In this document: positions 3,864 to 30,342 of the stretch, piece after piece
Layout: each line of letters opens with the position of its first letter
Position numbering within the stretch: position 1 is the first letter of the stretch
IMG/VR virus record: IMGVR_UViG_3300005367_000293
Location: 1-30,342 of that record
Strand: one strand, 5' to 3'
DNA from: a virus
DNA: 30,342 nt
Translations under genes and position numbers: made by a program
The notes under the pieces: generated by a model
Database searches by the model: none
The model's input: only the letters and a program-made list of their open reading frames with translations
What the model was told of the DNA's origin: nothing

Positions 3864-4451
3864 GTGAGTGACCGGGTTGTCCTAGGAAAGCTGCACGAGC
3901 TGGCCGAGCTTCCGGGCATGCCCTCGGAGCCCGTGCTGCGGCGGCTTATCAGGGACAACATGGATTTTCCCGTCGTGTCGACCGGCACAAACGGGCGAGC
4001 GTACGAAATCGACATCGCCGCCGCCGTCCTCTGGGTTCGTAACCACGAAGAGGCCAAGCGGCAGGCCGAGCGTGATCGCGGCGAAGAGTTGCGGCAGCTC
4101 TCAATGGACCTGCTGGGTCCTGACGCTGCCAGCAACGTCGCCCAGGCTGGCCTATCGCCGGCCGAGCGCAAGGCGCTGCTCGAGGAAGAGCTGATCGCCA
4201 CGAAGCTGGCCGAACGGCGCGGCGAGCTGGTGCGAAAGGAGTCGGTGGAGGCTGCGTTCACAGCGGTGTTCGATCTGTTGGGCCAGCAGCGCCGCGGGCT
4301 TGCCGCGCGCCTAGCGAAGCGCAGCGATCTGTCGCGCAAGCAGCAGACGCTGATCGAGGAGTTGCTGGACCGGGATCTCGACGAGCTCGCGGCCAAGTTC
4401 GAGGAAATGGGACGCGGTGGTGGAATGCCAGACGGTGATCCCGCCCTTTGA
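3864..4451 (+). CDS. terS: Phage terminase small subunit (Nu1/DUF1441-like)
   Basis: GTG start at 3864, chosen because coding sense begins there and the cos-like region ends before it; 195 residues. Residues ~1-65 form a winged-helix-like DNA-binding head (VLGKLHELAELPGMPSEPVLRRLI ... GRAYEIDIAAAVLWVRN), the layout of lambda gpNu1. The rest is charged alpha-helix/coiled coil (RKALLEEELIATKLAERRGELVRKESVEAAFTAVF ...), as in small terminases that oligomerise and contact the large subunit. It would recognise cosB next door and load the large subunit on the genome. The 3' end overlaps the large-terminase gene by 35 bases. Confidence 0.82.
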   Translation: MSDRVVLGKLHELAELPGMPSEPVLRRLIRDNMDFPVVSTGTNGRAYEIDIAAAVLWVRNHEEAKRQAERDRGEELRQLSMDLLGPDAASNVAQAGLSPAERKALLEEELIATKLAERRGELVRKESVEAAFTAVFDLLGQQRRGLAARLAKRSDLSRKQQTLIEELLDRDLDELAAKFEEMGRGGGMPDGDPAL

Positions 4452-6489
4452 AACGGGGCTGCAGGTCGTCGGCCGTATGGCCTACCGGGTTCGACCCAAG
4501 GAAAAGCTGAGCGTCTCGCAATGGGCCGGCCGGCACATCCGGCACTACGATCCCAGTGCGTTGCCGTTCCTGGCCGAGATCATGGACGCGTGTTCGGATC
4601 CCGAAACCTGTGAGGTGGGCGACATGGGCCCGGCGCAGGGTGGCAAGTCGATGGTTGGAGAAGCCTTCATCGGGTGGTCCATTCACCAGGACCCTGCGCC
4701 GTTTCTCATGGGGCAGCCTGACAAGGCGGCCGCCGAAGCGTTCATCAAGTTGCGCGTCAACACGCTGCTGGCAACCATCCCGGCGCTGCGAGCCGAGCTG
4801 GCGCCCAGCGCCAGTGCGGACAACATGCACCTGAAGTTGTTCCGGGGCATGTATCTGGGCGCGGCCTGGCCGGTGAAGAGTCAGTTTCGCCAGCGGCCGT
4901 ACTGCCGGGGTTGGCTCGACGACTTCGACGCCTTTCCCGACGATATCGAGGGGGAAGGCGACGCGGTCGGTTTGCTTGAGGGGCGCATGACGACCTTCAA
5001 GGGGCGAGACACCAAGCTGGTATCATCGTCACCGGCAAAGGAAGGCGGCGGCATCGAAGCCTTCATCGAGGGCGGGACGGATGAAAGGCTGCGGCCGGTC
5101 TGTCCGGGTTGCGGAACGCGAGTCGAGTTCGACTTGATCCGCGATCTGAAGTTTGACGACGAGGGCGATGCCGAGATGGCCGCGCAGACCGCGCATGTCG
5201 TCTGCCCGGCTCATGGCTGCGTACTCGAACCAGAAACGCGGCACGTGCTGCTGGAGAGCCTGGATTTGCTCCCGAACCGGGGCTTCGTGGCGAAGCGACC
5301 GGAAGCTGGCAGGTATCGGCGGACGTTCAGGCGCGACGGCCTGTTGTCGTTCACGCCCTGGGCGGACCTTGCCCGCCAATGGCGTGCGGCGCAGATCGCC
5401 TGGGCCGATCGTCAGGATGAAGGACCGCTTCGTGTGTTCTACAACACGAAAGCGGGGAAGAACTACCGCTCGATCCTTTCAGGTGAAAAGCCGGTCGAGC
5501 CCGATACGCTTCGAGACCGTCGTCGGCCGGGGTGGTTGCTGGGAACGGTGCCACGTGGACCGAAGGTGCTCAATCTTGTGGTCGACGTGCAGCGTGACCG
5601 CTTCGAGTGTGCGGTGATCGGTACGGCGGCAGGGCGCGAGACCTGGCTGGTCGATCGTTTTGCGATCCATGTGCTGGATGACGGGCTGACCGGTGTCATG
5701 CCGTTCGTGCACAAGGAGCACTGGAAAGTGCTGCTCGGCCTGTTCGACCGTCTGTATCCGCTCGTCGAAAACGGGGTGACGGTGGGCCACGCGCCGGTGT
5801 TGTCGGTAACGGTGGACACCGGCGGCTCGGACAAGGCGGGCGACCAGGCGACGGAAGGCGCGAAGTACTTCTGGCAGGCCGCACGGGCTCTCGGTGTGCC
5901 CGCGACGCGGATCACGCTCGTGAAGGGTGGATCGAACGTCAAGGCGGCGTTGATGGCTCCCGGCCAGTTCGCCGACCAGAAAACACGGGGGGGCGGGAAG
6001 CGCAGCTCCGCGCGGCTGTGGATACCCAACCCGCACAAGATCAAGAACGTGATCGACGCCCGGTTGCGTCGAGAAAGGCCGGGGCCGGGCTATGTGCACC
6101 TGCCCGAGAACCTGAGCGACGAGTACATCGACGAGCTGGCCGCCGAGGAAATGGTGGATGGCAAGTGGAGCAAGCGCCGGGCCCGCAACGAGACGTGGGA
6201 TCTGCTGGTTTATGCCGAGGCCGCGATCCTCAAGCCGCCCTTCGCGCAGAGCCGCTCGGACATGCGATGGATCCCGCGCGGTTTCAGCGTTCAGTGGCCC
6301 GCCCGGTCGGAGTTGGTGCAGGCGATTTCAGGTCAGCCTGGATTGCCAGGGGTCGTGGCGGCCGTGGATGCGCCTACGGTTGAAACGGCGCCTGCGTCCC
6401 TACCGACTGCAAAGCCGCCCCATGTGCGCCAGAAGGCGGCAAGGAAACAGTGGATCAAGACGCCCGGCCCATGGCTTGGGCGACGGTAG
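4417..6489 (+). CDS. terL: Phage terminase large subunit, GpA family (ATPase-nuclease)
   Basis: Start at tandem GTGs at 4417, inside the small-subunit gene; 690 residues against 641 for lambda gpA. Walker A-like GPAQGGKS at ~71-78, Walker B-type WLDDFDAFPDD at ~166-176, and an SSSP coupling motif at ~203-206 build the packaging ATPase. A zinc-ribbon-like CPGC (229-232) with a partner C..HGC (263-268) follows. The nuclease half has LVVDVQ (D390) and VTVDTGG (D467), the acidic residues expected of the RNase H-like cos cutter, then a basic tail. It docks on the portal, cuts cos and pumps DNA into the prohead. The adjoining small subunit, cos-like site and portal support the call. Confidence 0.95.
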   Translation: MVECQTVIPPFETGLQVVGRMAYRVRPKEKLSVSQWAGRHIRHYDPSALPFLAEIMDACSDPETCEVGDMGPAQGGKSMVGEAFIGWSIHQDPAPFLMGQPDKAAAEAFIKLRVNTLLATIPALRAELAPSASADNMHLKLFRGMYLGAAWPVKSQFRQRPYCRGWLDDFDAFPDDIEGEGDAVGLLEGRMTTFKGRDTKLVSSSPAKEGGGIEAFIEGGTDERLRPVCPGCGTRVEFDLIRDLKFDDEGDAEMAAQTAHVVCPAHGCVLEPETRHVLLESLDLLPNRGFVAKRPEAGRYRRTFRRDGLLSFTPWADLARQWRAAQIAWADRQDEGPLRVFYNTKAGKNYRSILSGEKPVEPDTLRDRRRPGWLLGTVPRGPKVLNLVVDVQRDRFECAVIGTAAGRETWLVDRFAIHVLDDGLTGVMPFVHKEHWKVLLGLFDRLYPLVENGVTVGHAPVLSVTVDTGGSDKAGDQATEGAKYFWQAARALGVPATRITLVKGGSNVKAALMAPGQFADQKTRGGGKRSSARLWIPNPHKIKNVIDARLRRERPGPGYVHLPENLSDEYIDELAAEEMVDGKWSKRRARNETWDLLVYAEAAILKPPFAQSRSDMRWIPRGFSVQWPARSELVQAISGQPGLPGVVAAVDAPTVETAPASLPTAKPPHVRQKAARKQWIKTPGPWLGRR

Positions 6490-11198: not shown

Positions 11199-11492
11199 AT
11201 GAGCCCCGACGACAAGGCCGCGCTGGTGGCAATCCACGACGCTTTCGCCAGCGAGGTTCTCTACGGCGGCGTCGGCAAGGTGATAGCTGTCGAAACCGAC
11301 GACGGGATGGCCGATGGGATGGGCGGTCCTGCTGTCCGGAGCCGTTCGTTCGAGATCCTGCAGGACAGGCTGCCGCGCGAACCGGCGAAGAACGATCGAA
11401 TTGACGCCGGCGGCGCGACGTGGCGGGTGATTGAGGTCCAGCGTCGCGACGATCTCGCGGCGTGGGTGCTGTTCGTGGAGCAACGGCCGTGA
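11199..11492 (+). CDS. Head-tail joining protein (gpFII-like)
   Basis: ATG at 11199, no strong ribosome site; 97 residues. MSPDDKAALVAIHDAFASEVLY gives an N-terminal helix, followed by beta-strands (GKVIAVETDDG, RSRSFEILQDRLP, DRIDAGGATWRVIEVQRRDDLAAWVLFVEQ). The pattern of a helix then a small beta barrel with IDAGGATWRV is typical of phage head-tail attachment proteins of the lambda FII type. It would bind the connector after gpW and provide the surface to which tails attach. Next gene overlaps at the stop. Confidence 0.72.
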   Translation: MSPDDKAALVAIHDAFASEVLYGGVGKVIAVETDDGMADGMGGPAVRSRSFEILQDRLPREPAKNDRIDAGGATWRVIEVQRRDDLAAWVLFVEQRP

Positions 11493-27578: not shown

Positions 27579-28177
27579 CCGATTTTACCCGCAAGCCGGT
27601 GTTCGACACCGTGCGCGCGTTCCTAGGCCGGGGCTTCACCGCCGGCGAAGTGCGGCAGCTCGACGCGGCGATCGACGCCGGGCTGGGCATCGCGCCGCAG
27701 CTGGTGCCGGCGATGCGCACCTCGCCCGCGGGCATCGCCGTGATGCACAAGTGGGAGGGCTGCGAGAAGCGGTGCACCGATGGCCGGTTCGAGGCCTATC
27801 CCGATCCCGGCAGCGCCGACGGCAAGCCATGGACGATCGGGTGGGGCTCCACCGGGCCCGACATCAAGCCCGGCACCGTGTGGTCGCAGGCGCAGTGCGA
27901 CGCGCGGTTCGCGGCCGATCTGCAGGCCTACGAGCGCGCGGTGCTTGCCGCGATCGGCGATGCGCCCACGACGCAGAACCAGTTCGATGCACTGGTCTCG
28001 TTTCACTACAACACCGGCGCCATCGCCACCTCGCAACTGGGCAAGCTGCACAAGGCGGGCAAGTACGCCGATGCCGCCGCCGAGTTCGGCAAGTGGATCT
28101 ACAACAACCACAAGCCGATGGACGGCCTGCGCAACCGCCGGGCCGATGAAGCGGCGCTGTATAGGGGCGCCGCATGA
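27575..28177 (+). CDS. Endolysin, GH24 lysozyme
   Basis: GTG at 27575, overlapping the previous stop; 200 residues. Residues ~50-200 are a GH24 domain: KWEGCEKRCTDGRFEAYPDP with the catalytic Glu (E61), an Asp (D77) and the PWTIGWGSTG block (~85-94) with the conserved Thr, then QNQFDALVSFHYNTGA and GLRNRRADEAALYRG. It cleaves the glycan strand of peptidoglycan. The ~48-residue N-terminal extension (VFDTVRAFLGRGFTAGEVRQLDAAIDAGLG) is common in endolysins of such phages and may aid positioning. No signal peptide or SAR segment, so release by a holin is expected. Confidence 0.93.
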   Translation: MTDFTRKPVFDTVRAFLGRGFTAGEVRQLDAAIDAGLGIAPQLVPAMRTSPAGIAVMHKWEGCEKRCTDGRFEAYPDPGSADGKPWTIGWGSTGPDIKPGTVWSQAQCDARFAADLQAYERAVLAAIGDAPTTQNQFDALVSFHYNTGAIATSQLGKLHKAGKYADAAAEFGKWIYNNHKPMDGLRNRRADEAALYRGAA

Positions 28178-28560
28178 ACCTCTGGCAGTACCTAGATCGC
28201 CGCGGCGAGCGCATGCTCACGCGCGAGGGTCGCATCCTTCCGCACGACTTTCGGGGCTGGGTCGCGCTCGGCCTGTTCGTCCAGTCGAGCAGCCTGTTCG
28301 GGCTGATGTGCCTGCGCGAAGGCCTGATGGACAACCAAGGCTTCATGACACTGGCTTCGGCCGTGGTTGTGACCGGGTGGATCGGCGGCGTGGCGGCGTT
28401 CGCCTACTCGGCCGGCAAGCAGCAGGGCGAAGCCACAGCGCTGGCCAGCCAAGCGATGAACCTCGCCGCGAATGCGAACGGGGCCGGCGCCGACGTGGCA
28501 AAGGCCGCCGAGCAGGTCGCGGACGCCGCAGCCGATCGGGCAGAGGACTTCAAGCCATGA
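28174..28560 (+). CDS. Small membrane protein after endolysin (second holin candidate)
   Basis: ATG at 28174 in an ATGA overlap with the lysozyme stop; 128 residues. Two hydrophobic segments, ~28-48 (GWVALGLFVQSSSLFGLMCL) and ~57-79 (FMTLASAVVVTGWIGGVAAFAYS), and an Ala-rich helical tail (ASQAMNLAANANGAGADVAKAAEQVADAAADRAED). Two-segment topology with N- and C-termini inside is seen in class II holins, but many phages carry similar proteins of unknown function. Its position suggests a role in lysis. Confidence 0.7.
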   Translation: MNLWQYLDRRGERMLTREGRILPHDFRGWVALGLFVQSSSLFGLMCLREGLMDNQGFMTLASAVVVTGWIGGVAAFAYSAGKQQGEATALASQAMNLAANANGAGADVAKAAEQVADAAADRAEDFKP

Positions 28561-28703
28561 GCAACATCGAAGTTCAGTAGGCCCGGACGGCGAAGTGGAT
28601 GGACAACCCCGATGCCCCGGCGATGAACGCTGACAGTGCCAACCTCAACCTCCGCGTCATACCGACGCCTCTGAAACCGGAGACTTCCAATGCGACTGAC
28701 TGA
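28557..28703 (+). pseudogene. Small ORF interrupted by an in-frame amber codon
   Basis: ATG at 28557 overlaps the preceding stop (ATGA), the standard start in this operon, but TAG occurs at codon 8 (28578-28580). The same frame then runs to TGA at 28701-28703 with nearly all G/C in third positions early on (ARTAKWMDNPDAPAMNADSA, NLNLRVIPTP, LKPETSNATD), which looks like real coding sequence. An in-frame ATG at 28599 could start a 34-residue remnant. A single-base nonsense change is the simplest reading; amber read-through or a sequence error are alternatives. Confidence 0.45.
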
Positions 28704-28989
28704 TCTAGAACCACGTTTCTTTGTTGTGGGGTCCAACGCCCAACCGGTCGGCATTACTTTCAACTGCCCACATTGCCATGAGAGTGGACAGCGCCTTGCC
28801 ATCGCGCTCCATATGGACGGCACCAACTTTGATCCTGACCCGAAGAACGACCAGCAGTTCGCGACTGATGAAAGAGTGTGGACGATCACCAGCGGCGATA
28901 GTTTTTCGAACCTGACTTTGACCCCATCGGTTGACGCCAGTTCGTCGGGGCATTGGCATGGGCACATTACAAACGGCGAAGTTCGATAG
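28690..28989 (+). CDS. DUF6527-family protein (putative zinc-binding)
   Basis: ATG at 28690, 99 residues. It has MRLTDLEPRFFVVG at the start, ITFNCPHCHES (C26, C29, H30), VWTITSGDSFSNLTLTPSV (~63-81) and the closing GHWHGHITNGEV (H88, H90). This is the DUF6527 outline as I know it: a CxxC knuckle, the TLTPSV strand and a terminal HWH motif, probably together holding a metal. Hand counts give ~50-57% G+C, lower than its neighbours. Function is unknown; such genes occur as small accessory genes in phages. Confidence 0.78.
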   Translation: MRLTDLEPRFFVVGSNAQPVGITFNCPHCHESGQRLAIALHMDGTNFDPDPKNDQQFATDERVWTITSGDSFSNLTLTPSVDASSSGHWHGHITNGEVR

Positions 28990-28990
28990 G

Positions 28991-29401
28991 GTGACCTTCC
29001 TGATCCGCGCTGCTGCCTTCCTAGGCGTGCCTGCGCGCCTGCAGCGCCTCGTAGGCTGGGCACTGGCCGTGATTGTGTTGGTCGCGCTCCTGTGGGGTGC
29101 CAAGGCAGCTTACGACGCCAGCGTGATCGATCACCATCAGGCCAAGCAGGAAAAGAAGACCGTCAAGGCTCTCGACGTGGCCGCCGAGCAGCGCGCCACC
29201 GATGCGATCGTCAACGCCATGGCAGAGCGAGATCGCGAAAACGCCATTGCCGCGGCCGAAGCGGCTGAAGCGGCGAAGCCGCCGGCGGAGCGCGCCACGC
29301 TGCCTCCGACCACGCTGGCGCTCAACTGCGCCCGCTTCAAGCGCGCCTACTCGCCGGCCGAGCTGGCGAAGATCCCCGCCTACAAGGAGTTGTGCAAATG
29401 A
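28991..29401 (+). CDS. Putative inner-membrane spanin (Rz-like)
   Basis: GTG at 28991, right after the DUF6527 stop, is taken as start; an earlier in-frame start would overlap that gene by 59 bases. 136 residues. One hydrophobic segment (~21-38, GWALAVIVLVALLWGAKA) precedes a long charged helix (~45-93: IDHHQAKQEKKTVKALDVAAEQRATDAIVNAMAERDRENAIAAA in part), the N-in/C-out layout of an i-spanin. A Cys (~119) and LAKIPAYKELC lie at the end. With the signal-bearing protein at 29607 it could form a spanin pair that fuses the two membranes in lysis. No sequence signature proves it. Confidence 0.58.
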   Translation: MTFLIRAAAFLGVPARLQRLVGWALAVIVLVALLWGAKAAYDASVIDHHQAKQEKKTVKALDVAAEQRATDAIVNAMAERDRENAIAAAEAAEAAKPPAERATLPPTTLALNCARFKRAYSPAELAKIPAYKELCK

Positions 29402-29610
29402 CCGAGGACCAGATCAAGCAGATGGCAAACCGCTTCCTGGGTTGGAAGCTTCCGGCCGATTTCCACCCTGATGCAGGGATCAAGTTCGAGCCTCACGTCA
29501 ATCCTGGCGCGCAGTACGATCACGATCGCCAAGGTCCGGTAGGCACCAACCTGTTCACTGCCACCCAGGCGGAGGCGATGGTGAGGCACATGGTCGAGGG
29601 GCTCGAATGA
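29398..29610 (+). CDS. Small conserved phage protein of unknown function (70 aa)
   Basis: ATG at 29398 overlaps the previous stop and its own stop overlaps the next start, so it is an operon member. TEDQIKQMANRFLGWKLPADFHPD, GIKFEPHVN, GPVGTNLFTATQAEAMVRHMVEGLE form a pattern I know from many phage genomes, always a short protein with NRFLxWKLP near the start and GTNLxxxxQAxxMVRxMLEGL at the end. Its role is unknown. It lies between the two spanin-like genes. Confidence 0.82.
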   Translation: MTEDQIKQMANRFLGWKLPADFHPDAGIKFEPHVNPGAQYDHDRQGPVGTNLFTATQAEAMVRHMVEGLE

Positions 29611-29876
29611 AACGCCTCGCCCTCGCCGCAGTCCTGCTGCTCACGCTGCCCGGCGCCATGTGCTCGACGACGCAGGCCGGCTTTCCGTCCCGCGAGGACG
29701 TGATCGCCGTCACCGAAGCCAAGCCCAAGCCGGCGCCTGAAGTCCTCACCGACGCCACCGCGAACGACCGCTATAACAGCGCGCTCGAAGGTTGGGGCGA
29801 CCGCCTGCATGCAGCCGGCGTGCGGTTGTGCCAGTTCTACAACCGGACCGGCATGGACGTTCATTGCGGGGCTTGA
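29607..29876 (+). CDS. Secreted Rz1-like protein (candidate outer-membrane spanin)
   Basis: ATG at 29607 in an ATGA overlap; 89 residues. A signal sequence MKRLALAAVLLLTLPGAMC ends in Cys 19, but the residue before it is Met, so the lipobox (GAMC) is not canonical. The mature part starts with STTQAG and contains a Pro/Lys stretch (EAKPKPAPEVL) and WGDRLHAAGVRLCQFYNRTG with two further Cys. Size, exported N-terminus and position after a candidate i-spanin suggest an o-spanin; if the lipobox fails it may be a plain periplasmic protein. Its stop codon overlaps the promoter downstream. Confidence 0.6.
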   Translation: MKRLALAAVLLLTLPGAMCSTTQAGFPSREDVIAVTEAKPKPAPEVLTDATANDRYNSALEGWGDRLHAAGVRLCQFYNRTGMDVHCGA

Positions 29877-29902
29877 CCGACTCGGCATGATGTTCCGATA
29901 AT
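29873..29902 (+). promoter_or_regulatory. Strong sigma70-like promoter for the last two genes
   Basis: TTGACC at 29873-29878 and GATAAT at 29897-29902 each match five of six consensus bases, 18 bases apart. Transcription would start about 29908-29910, at the ATG of the next gene (29909), giving a leaderless message. No ribosome site is present before that ATG, which agrees. Confidence 0.65.
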
Positions 29903-29906
29903 GTTC
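29892..29906. promoter_or_regulatory. LexA (SOS) box of alphaproteobacterial type, overlapping the -10
   Basis: GTTC (29892-29895), seven bases, GTTC (29903-29906) is an exact GTTC-N7-GTTC direct repeat, the LexA operator of Alphaproteobacteria. It covers the -10 hexamer (29897-29902), so bound LexA would block RNA polymerase and DNA damage would release it. Confidence 0.68.
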
Positions 29907-29908
29907 TC

Positions 29909-30151
29909 ATGCCTGACGAACCGTTCCCGCTCATTCTCACCCGCGACCAGGTGCGCTTCGAAATCATGTTCGGGATGCATCAGATCGCCCGAGCCACGAT
30001 CCGGGATTGGGCGGGGGTTAAATCCAATCCGATGAAAGCGATCCAAGCGCGGGATGCGGCGATCGAGATCTTGCTGGCGCGCTTCGACTGGCTACAGGTT
30101 CGCGGGCCAGCGCCGATGGAGTCGATCTTCGCTGATCGCGTCAAGCCATGA
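29909..30151 (+). CDS. Unknown protein under a LexA-type box (80 aa)
   Basis: ATG at 29909 without ribosome site, at the predicted transcript start; 80 residues. It has FPLILTRDQVRFEIMFGMHQIARATIRDWAGVKSN, then an amphipathic helix (PMKAIQARDAAIEILLARFDWLQVRG) and a short tail. The outline is an all-helical, DNA-binding-sized protein but I do not recognise a family. Location after lysis genes and an SOS-type operator suggests a gene expressed on DNA damage, perhaps during prophage induction. Confidence 0.75.
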   Translation: MPDEPFPLILTRDQVRFEIMFGMHQIARATIRDWAGVKSNPMKAIQARDAAIEILLARFDWLQVRGPAPMESIFADRVKP

Positions 30152-30342
30152 GCGGGTGCCGCATCTGCACCGCCAACGATCGGGCCGCTCTGGTCGAGGA
30201 TGTGGCCCGCGCGATGTGGGATACGCAAAAGTCGACATCGCCGGTCGACGAGTGGCGGCCGTGGGATCAGGCGGGACCGTACTGGCACACGATGATGCGG
30301 CGCTTCGCCGAAGCTACGGTCGCAGCCTTGACCGGCTATTAG
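30148..30342 (+). CDS. Unknown protein (64 aa) at the window end
   Basis: ATG at 30148 overlaps the previous stop (ATGA); TAG ends at the last base of the window. MSGCRICTANDRAALVEDVARAMWDTQK has a CxxC, and DEWRPWDQAGPYWHTMMRRFAEATVAALTGY is rich in Trp. ALVEDVARAMW and a W-rich middle before a helix RRFAEATVAAL recall small phage proteins with unknown function. It should be co-transcribed from the promoter at 29873. Confidence 0.7.
   Translation: MSGCRICTANDRAALVEDVARAMWDTQKSTSPVDEWRPWDQAGPYWHTMMRRFAEATVAALTGY

Follow-up and report, generated by a model that had tools for sequence, protein, structure and literature searches.

What is known of LexA-controlled prophage genes comes mostly from Enterobacteria and Bacillus phages. 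Small proteins that are directly controlled by LexA and encoded outside the immunity region have been described for the Gifsy prophages (PMC3121763) and for coliphage 186 (PMC7708051). The published LexA box of alphaproteobacteria is GTTC-N7-GTTC (PMC12700426; PMC7987155). For GcrA activation of CcrM-methylated promoters the motif YGAKTCG has been given (Haakonsen 2015, as cited in PMC7987155); PMC7987155 itself regards the GcrA site as essentially a palindrome, and in a second species the extended motif was not found again there. In the same work, the conserved GANTC at ruvC and imuA is ascribed to overlap with the LexA box.

The window analysed here is an IMG/VR virus record of 30,342 bases with a lambda-type terminase and portal; it is a fragment. 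Its right end carries two small genes, termed A and B. Searches with B added further loci from Novosphingobium, Sphingomonas, Croceibacterium and IMG/VR contigs; L013, a truncated match to B, is excluded from all locus counts. The box, the promoter geometry, the LexA motif of the hosts, the conservation of the GANTC site and the two-gene layout were established by comparison of these sequences. To judge from them, it is rather likely that A and B form an accessory operon of sphingomonad mobile elements that is repressed by LexA, induced by damage and also linked to DNA methylation.

Layout of the operon and its promoter

The operon is located after the lysis region. It reaches the end of the record, whose last base is also that of the TAG stop codon of B (Table 1). 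Between the lysis region and the operon there is a small ORF matching DUF6527 (PF20137; 28690-28989). The window holds no repressor region.

Table 1. Features at the right end of the window
Feature	Positions	Strand	Remarks
Preceding ORF	29607-29876	+	Final gene of the late/lysis region; extends into the -35 element
-35 element TTGACC	29873-29878	+	Kept in L001 and L015; overlaps the TGA stop of the preceding ORF (29874-29876)
GANTC (CcrM-type) site CGACTCG	29878-29884	+	Reverse complement of YGAKTCG
LexA-type box GTTCCGATAATGTTC	29892-29906	+	Exact GTTC-CGATAAT-GTTC
-10 element GATAAT	29897-29902	+	Inside the LexA-type box
ORF A	29909-30151	+	80 aa; transcript predicted to start at the ATG, without a leader; no named family
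ORF B	30148-30342	+	64 aa; CRIC-[TS]-AND protein, predicted helical hairpin; ATGA overlap with A

TTGACC-18-GATAAT (29873-29902) is the sole sigma70-like promoter match in the region 28000-30342, with agreement at 10 of 12 positions and 0.4 matches expected. The start codon of ORF A begins at the seventh base past the -10 element. The description in the first-pass annotation of an exact GTTC-N7-GTTC repeat over the -10 element, with a predicted start point at the ATG, is borne out. Its claim of independence from late phage control goes too far: the preceding ORF on the same strand has its stop codon inside the -35 element, and no plus-strand terminator was found between this ORF and the promoter. 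Late read-through into the operon is therefore possible.

The repeat alone is unremarkable. The window contains two GTTC-N7-GTTC sites, where 0.77 are expected. The second exact site, GTTCTTCGCCGGTTC (11379-11393, minus strand), lies within coding sequence and is within chance expectation. The significance of the box at the operon derives from the comparison with relatives. In the closest relative (L001), in which A is 91% identical, all bases from the -35 element to the ATG are kept except for a stretch of 6 nt, although upstream of the promoter its DNA is unrelated to that of the window. An exact GTTC-N7-GTTC is present at the operon in all 23 distinct B-carrying loci compared. It points towards B in 16 of them and away from B in seven (L010, L025, L027, L011, L012, L030 and L028); in L010, L025 and L027 it is nevertheless close upstream of the start of B. 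For comparison, the site is rare in the host, with 13 copies in 400 kb of genome, and phage records of complete length usually have one at the operon and few elsewhere. A chance origin of the operon box is rejected by this conservation.

The box occupies one of two positions relative to a fixed arrangement of -35 element, GANTC site and -10 element. In class I, which comprises eight loci (the window, L001, L003, L008, L009, L015, L018 and L020), the -10 element is inside the box and 2 nt lie between the box and the ATG, giving tcATG without a leader. The first gene is A in six of these loci and an unrelated gene of 47 residues (C type) in the other two; a Shine-Dalgarno sequence was not found at any of the eight. 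In class II (L005, L016, L017, L024 and L026, with L002 being similar), the box lies 13 nt farther downstream when counted from the GANTC/-35. Here, the genes start 14-18 nt past the box and are preceded by GGAG or AAGGAAG, i.e. by a leader with a Shine-Dalgarno sequence. The two geometries predict leaderless and leadered mRNAs, respectively, and since the layouts switch along with the position of the box, they support the predicted start points. The 2-nt spacing is kept in front of two unrelated first genes, and the transcript of A and B is likely leaderless, with its predicted 5' end at the ATG, as the first-pass annotation had it.

Gene products, distribution and possible roles

For A and B there is no match in Pfam, NCBIfam, PADLOC or the phage collection and no significant match in PHROG. 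Most likely both are small helical proteins. Homologs of A are found at eight loci (40-91% identical) and share the motifs FP-x-[IV]LT and VRFE in their N-terminal part and, towards the C-terminus, ARF-xx-LQVR. The structure model of A is poor (pLDDT 65) and unusable. B begins with an invariant CRIC-x-AND (22 sequences) and is predicted to form a helical hairpin (pLDDT 86). Fold searches gave no convincing relative for either A or B; matches of B to the RyR-repeat fold were weak (E 3-9) and were disregarded.

The operon is not confined to phages. On megaplasmids, B together with the box is present in S. yanoikuyae and a broken copy of B in N. resinovorum, both away from phage genes. These two homologs of B lack annotation as genes and are located at 5983-6195 of L264 (S. 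yanoikuyae pKN1) and at about 5001-5192 of L265 (N. resinovorum pHR1a, with an internal stop codon). Some operons, not all, have repair genes nearby. Genes for SRAP proteins stand behind the same promoter class in L257 and L197 and beside the B loci in L030 and L265. The box of L028 drives a HIRAN gene, and in L018 a HIRAN gene and an ATP-dependent DNA ligase gene adjoin the operon.

A small YozE-like gene (SAM-like fold) recurs on the far side of the LexA box or directly behind it (L002 4409-4654, minus strand; L011 3572; L030 3566). Scanning IMG/VR with the promoter alone gave mostly chance matches, along with a few clear cassettes. On the sphingomonad-like phage contigs L138 (3372-3400), L200, L182, L179 and L195, the -35/GANTC/LexA-box/tcATG promoter or a close variant precedes other unrelated small genes.

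According to the first-pass annotation, the genes may encode an antirepressor-like induction trigger or a DNA-damage factor of a new kind. In the first case A, or A together with B, would be a LexA-controlled antirepressor that inactivates the phage repressor after damage, comparable to Tum in coliphage 186 or GfoA in Gifsy-1. As in 186 and Gifsy, direct LexA control is predicted for small genes outside the immunity region. S24 repressors were found in eight of the ten relatives of at least 38 kb, leaving two records (38.9 and 54 kb) without an S24 match, and four of the seven distinct repressors do not have Ala-Gly where cleavage is expected. The other three, however, are HTH-S24 repressors with a LexA/CI-type Ala-Gly, and the three relatives with such a repressor of their own, including L003, which has A, would need no antirepressor. 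Furthermore, B occurs on plasmids outside phage clusters, and the first gene of the operon is freely swapped (A, the C type or others), with B and the promoter remaining constant. Similarity of A or B to known antirepressors was not significant in PHROG, Pfam or NCBIfam, and the neighbourhood with SRAP, HIRAN and DNA ligase points to the handling of DNA damage. The trigger proposed earlier is thus unsupported, and an antirepressor function is unlikely; a mobile DNA-damage-response unit fits better. In L108, L109 and L111, the S24-type repressors have Met-Gly-Pro-Gly in place of the LexA/CI Ala-Gly and are possibly not self-cleaving.

The operon could also be cargo for lysogenic conversion or growth control that is switched on in a damaged host. 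It might, for instance, encode a division inhibitor triggered by the SOS response, or a toxin-like pair. Two overlapping small genes, a swappable first partner and the combination of a LexA box with a cell-cycle (GANTC) site would suit such cargo, but in Pfam, NCBIfam and PADLOC neither protein resembles known toxins, antitoxins, division inhibitors or defence proteins. This role is rather improbable as well. A function of A and B in the DNA-damage response, the other option of the first-pass annotation, is put forward tentatively, as it is suggested by guilt by association.

Host LexA and the GANTC site as probable regulatory elements

In seven Sphingomonadales genomes that carry relatives of B, each of lexA, recA and uvrA is immediately preceded by an exact GTTC-N7-GTTC (21 of 21 promoters). 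The host of the window itself is inferred from the relatives to belong to the Sphingomonadales. Because the same repeat precedes these three genes, LexA control of the A-B promoter is very likely, and the LexA-type control suggested by the first-pass annotation is supported by the presence of the box at these genes in 7/7 genomes and at every B locus compared. A weight matrix of host LexA sites did not discriminate on the N7 letters, which are too variable, with too few background sites.

Could the repeat be the operator of another regulator, such as the phage's own repressor? GTTC direct repeats also occur in tandem in several Sphingomonadales genomes (L095-L098), where two to three GTTC-N7-GTTC repeats with GANTC, which may serve LexA or another regulator, precede an acyl-CoA synthetase-like gene. 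Against this stand the identical repeat at the SOS genes of all seven genomes and the near confinement of the site to the operon in phage records of complete length, and control by a regulator other than host LexA is very unlikely. A dedicated role of A as excisionase or recombination-directionality factor, suggested by integrase genes near the operon in L003, L006 and L015, is rejected as highly improbable, since homologous A genes lie beside serine (L006) and tyrosine (L003 and L015) integrases alike and these two types use unrelated directionality factors.

In L020, a phage-borne LexA-like regulator of 157 aa with a LexA-type DNA-binding domain (PF01726) is encoded at 4309-4782; the gene begins about 100 nt past B, near the LexA box.

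A second conserved element, missed by the first-pass annotation, is a GANTC site that stands directly after the -35 element or is fused to it. In 21 of the 23 loci, the motif MGAMTCR occurs within the 45 nt that precede the box; among random host 45-mers its frequency is 0.77%. Of the 15 promoter clusters, 14 contain it, and as these clusters may share ancestry, the p value of this enrichment serves as a guide only. The exceptions are L021, which has no GANTC, and L012, in which it is mutated. None of the seven recA promoters has MGAMTCR near the box. GANTC is depleted about 3.5-fold in the window (27 sites, 96 expected) and is depleted in the host, too (516 sites, 1289 expected). The phage may have kept its GANTC sites only where they are needed. 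That GANTC is a general promoter feature is rejected: among the 364 TTGAC sites that 400 kb of host sequence contain, only one has GAMTC at this place, and the recA promoters likewise contradict it.

CGAMTCR is the reverse complement of YGAKTCG, and the window copy CGACTCG matches this motif in or near the core promoter. All seven genomes of the host order encode GcrA (PF07750) and one CcrM-type RAMA methylase each; among 14 controls, the methylase is present only in Caulobacter. In 396 Sphingomonadales genomes, the pattern GAAC-N7-GAAC-N7-YGAKTCG has 39 matches, compared with two for the backwards control (20-fold). With a free gap of 2-32 nt between box and YGAKTCG, 290 matches compare with 66 for the backwards control in 196 genomes. 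This enrichment indicates that the promoter type of the phage exists on host chromosomes as well; the genes behind the 39 chromosomal sites are mixed and form no single regulon. On this evidence, involvement of GcrA and CcrM at the A-B promoter is reasonably probable. Taken with the LexA box, the promoter is probably derepressed by damage and activated by methylation.

Proposed regulation and comparison with known systems

In the lysogen, host LexA would bind GTTC-N7-GTTC over the -10 element and block the polymerase. Upon damage, LexA would cleave itself, and the sigma70 promoter would fire at the ATG of A, yielding a leaderless mRNA on which translation of B would be coupled to that of A via the ATGA overlap. 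With the GANTC site just past the -35 element, transcription would need, or be boosted by, GcrA on CcrM-methylated DNA, and the output of the operon would reflect both damage and the methylation state of the cell cycle. A and B would then serve the response of the element, or of its host, to DNA damage and would not be the trigger of phage induction.

More generally, the promoter might be a cassette shared by sphingomonad phages and plasmids that works as an AND gate, with LexA release (for DNA damage) and GcrA on CcrM-methylated GANTC (for the state of cell cycle and replication) as its two inputs and with swappable, often leaderless small genes as its load. This generalization is somewhat doubtful. 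If it is true, the response of a prophage to damage would be limited to a certain stage of chromosome replication. The operon itself is a conserved and widespread alphaproteobacterial version of prophage genes under very likely LexA control, in which damage control is probably joined to a cell-cycle methylation site. It offers a compact test case for whether phages read the cell-cycle epigenetics of the host before they respond to damage, and it singles out the new small proteins A and B for functional work.

The closest counterparts in genetic position are p95-tum of coliphage 186 and gfoA/gfhA of Gifsy. Like these, A and B are small prophage genes outside the immunity region that are under LexA control, which is predicted in the present case. 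They differ from p95-tum and gfoA/gfhA in sharing no sequence family with them, in the predicted leaderless transcript and in the GANTC site at the -35 element. Additionally, the A-B operon is also found on plasmids, and its relatives often have an Ala-Gly repressor of their own. Genes for the SOS response-associated peptidase SRAP (PF02586) and for HIRAN proteins (PF08797) in some cases share the promoter class or adjoin B operons, but A and B belong to neither family. The alphaproteobacterial SOS regulon, as in Caulobacter (PMC12700426), has the same operator type over core promoter elements as the A-B promoter. The operon differs from it in being borne on a mobile element, and A and B are not known SOS genes.

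In contrast to the GANTC at ruvC and imuA (PMC7987155), the GANTC site and the LexA box of the A-B promoter are separate sites. With the GcrA/CcrM-dependent sigma70 promoters, as characterized by YGAKTCG in the work cited in PMC7987155, the A-B promoter shares the extended motif, placed within or beside the core promoter, and the hosts of its relatives likewise encode GcrA and a CcrM-type methylase. Whereas those promoters have so far been described at chromosomal genes, the A-B promoter joins the motif to a LexA box at a fixed geometry.
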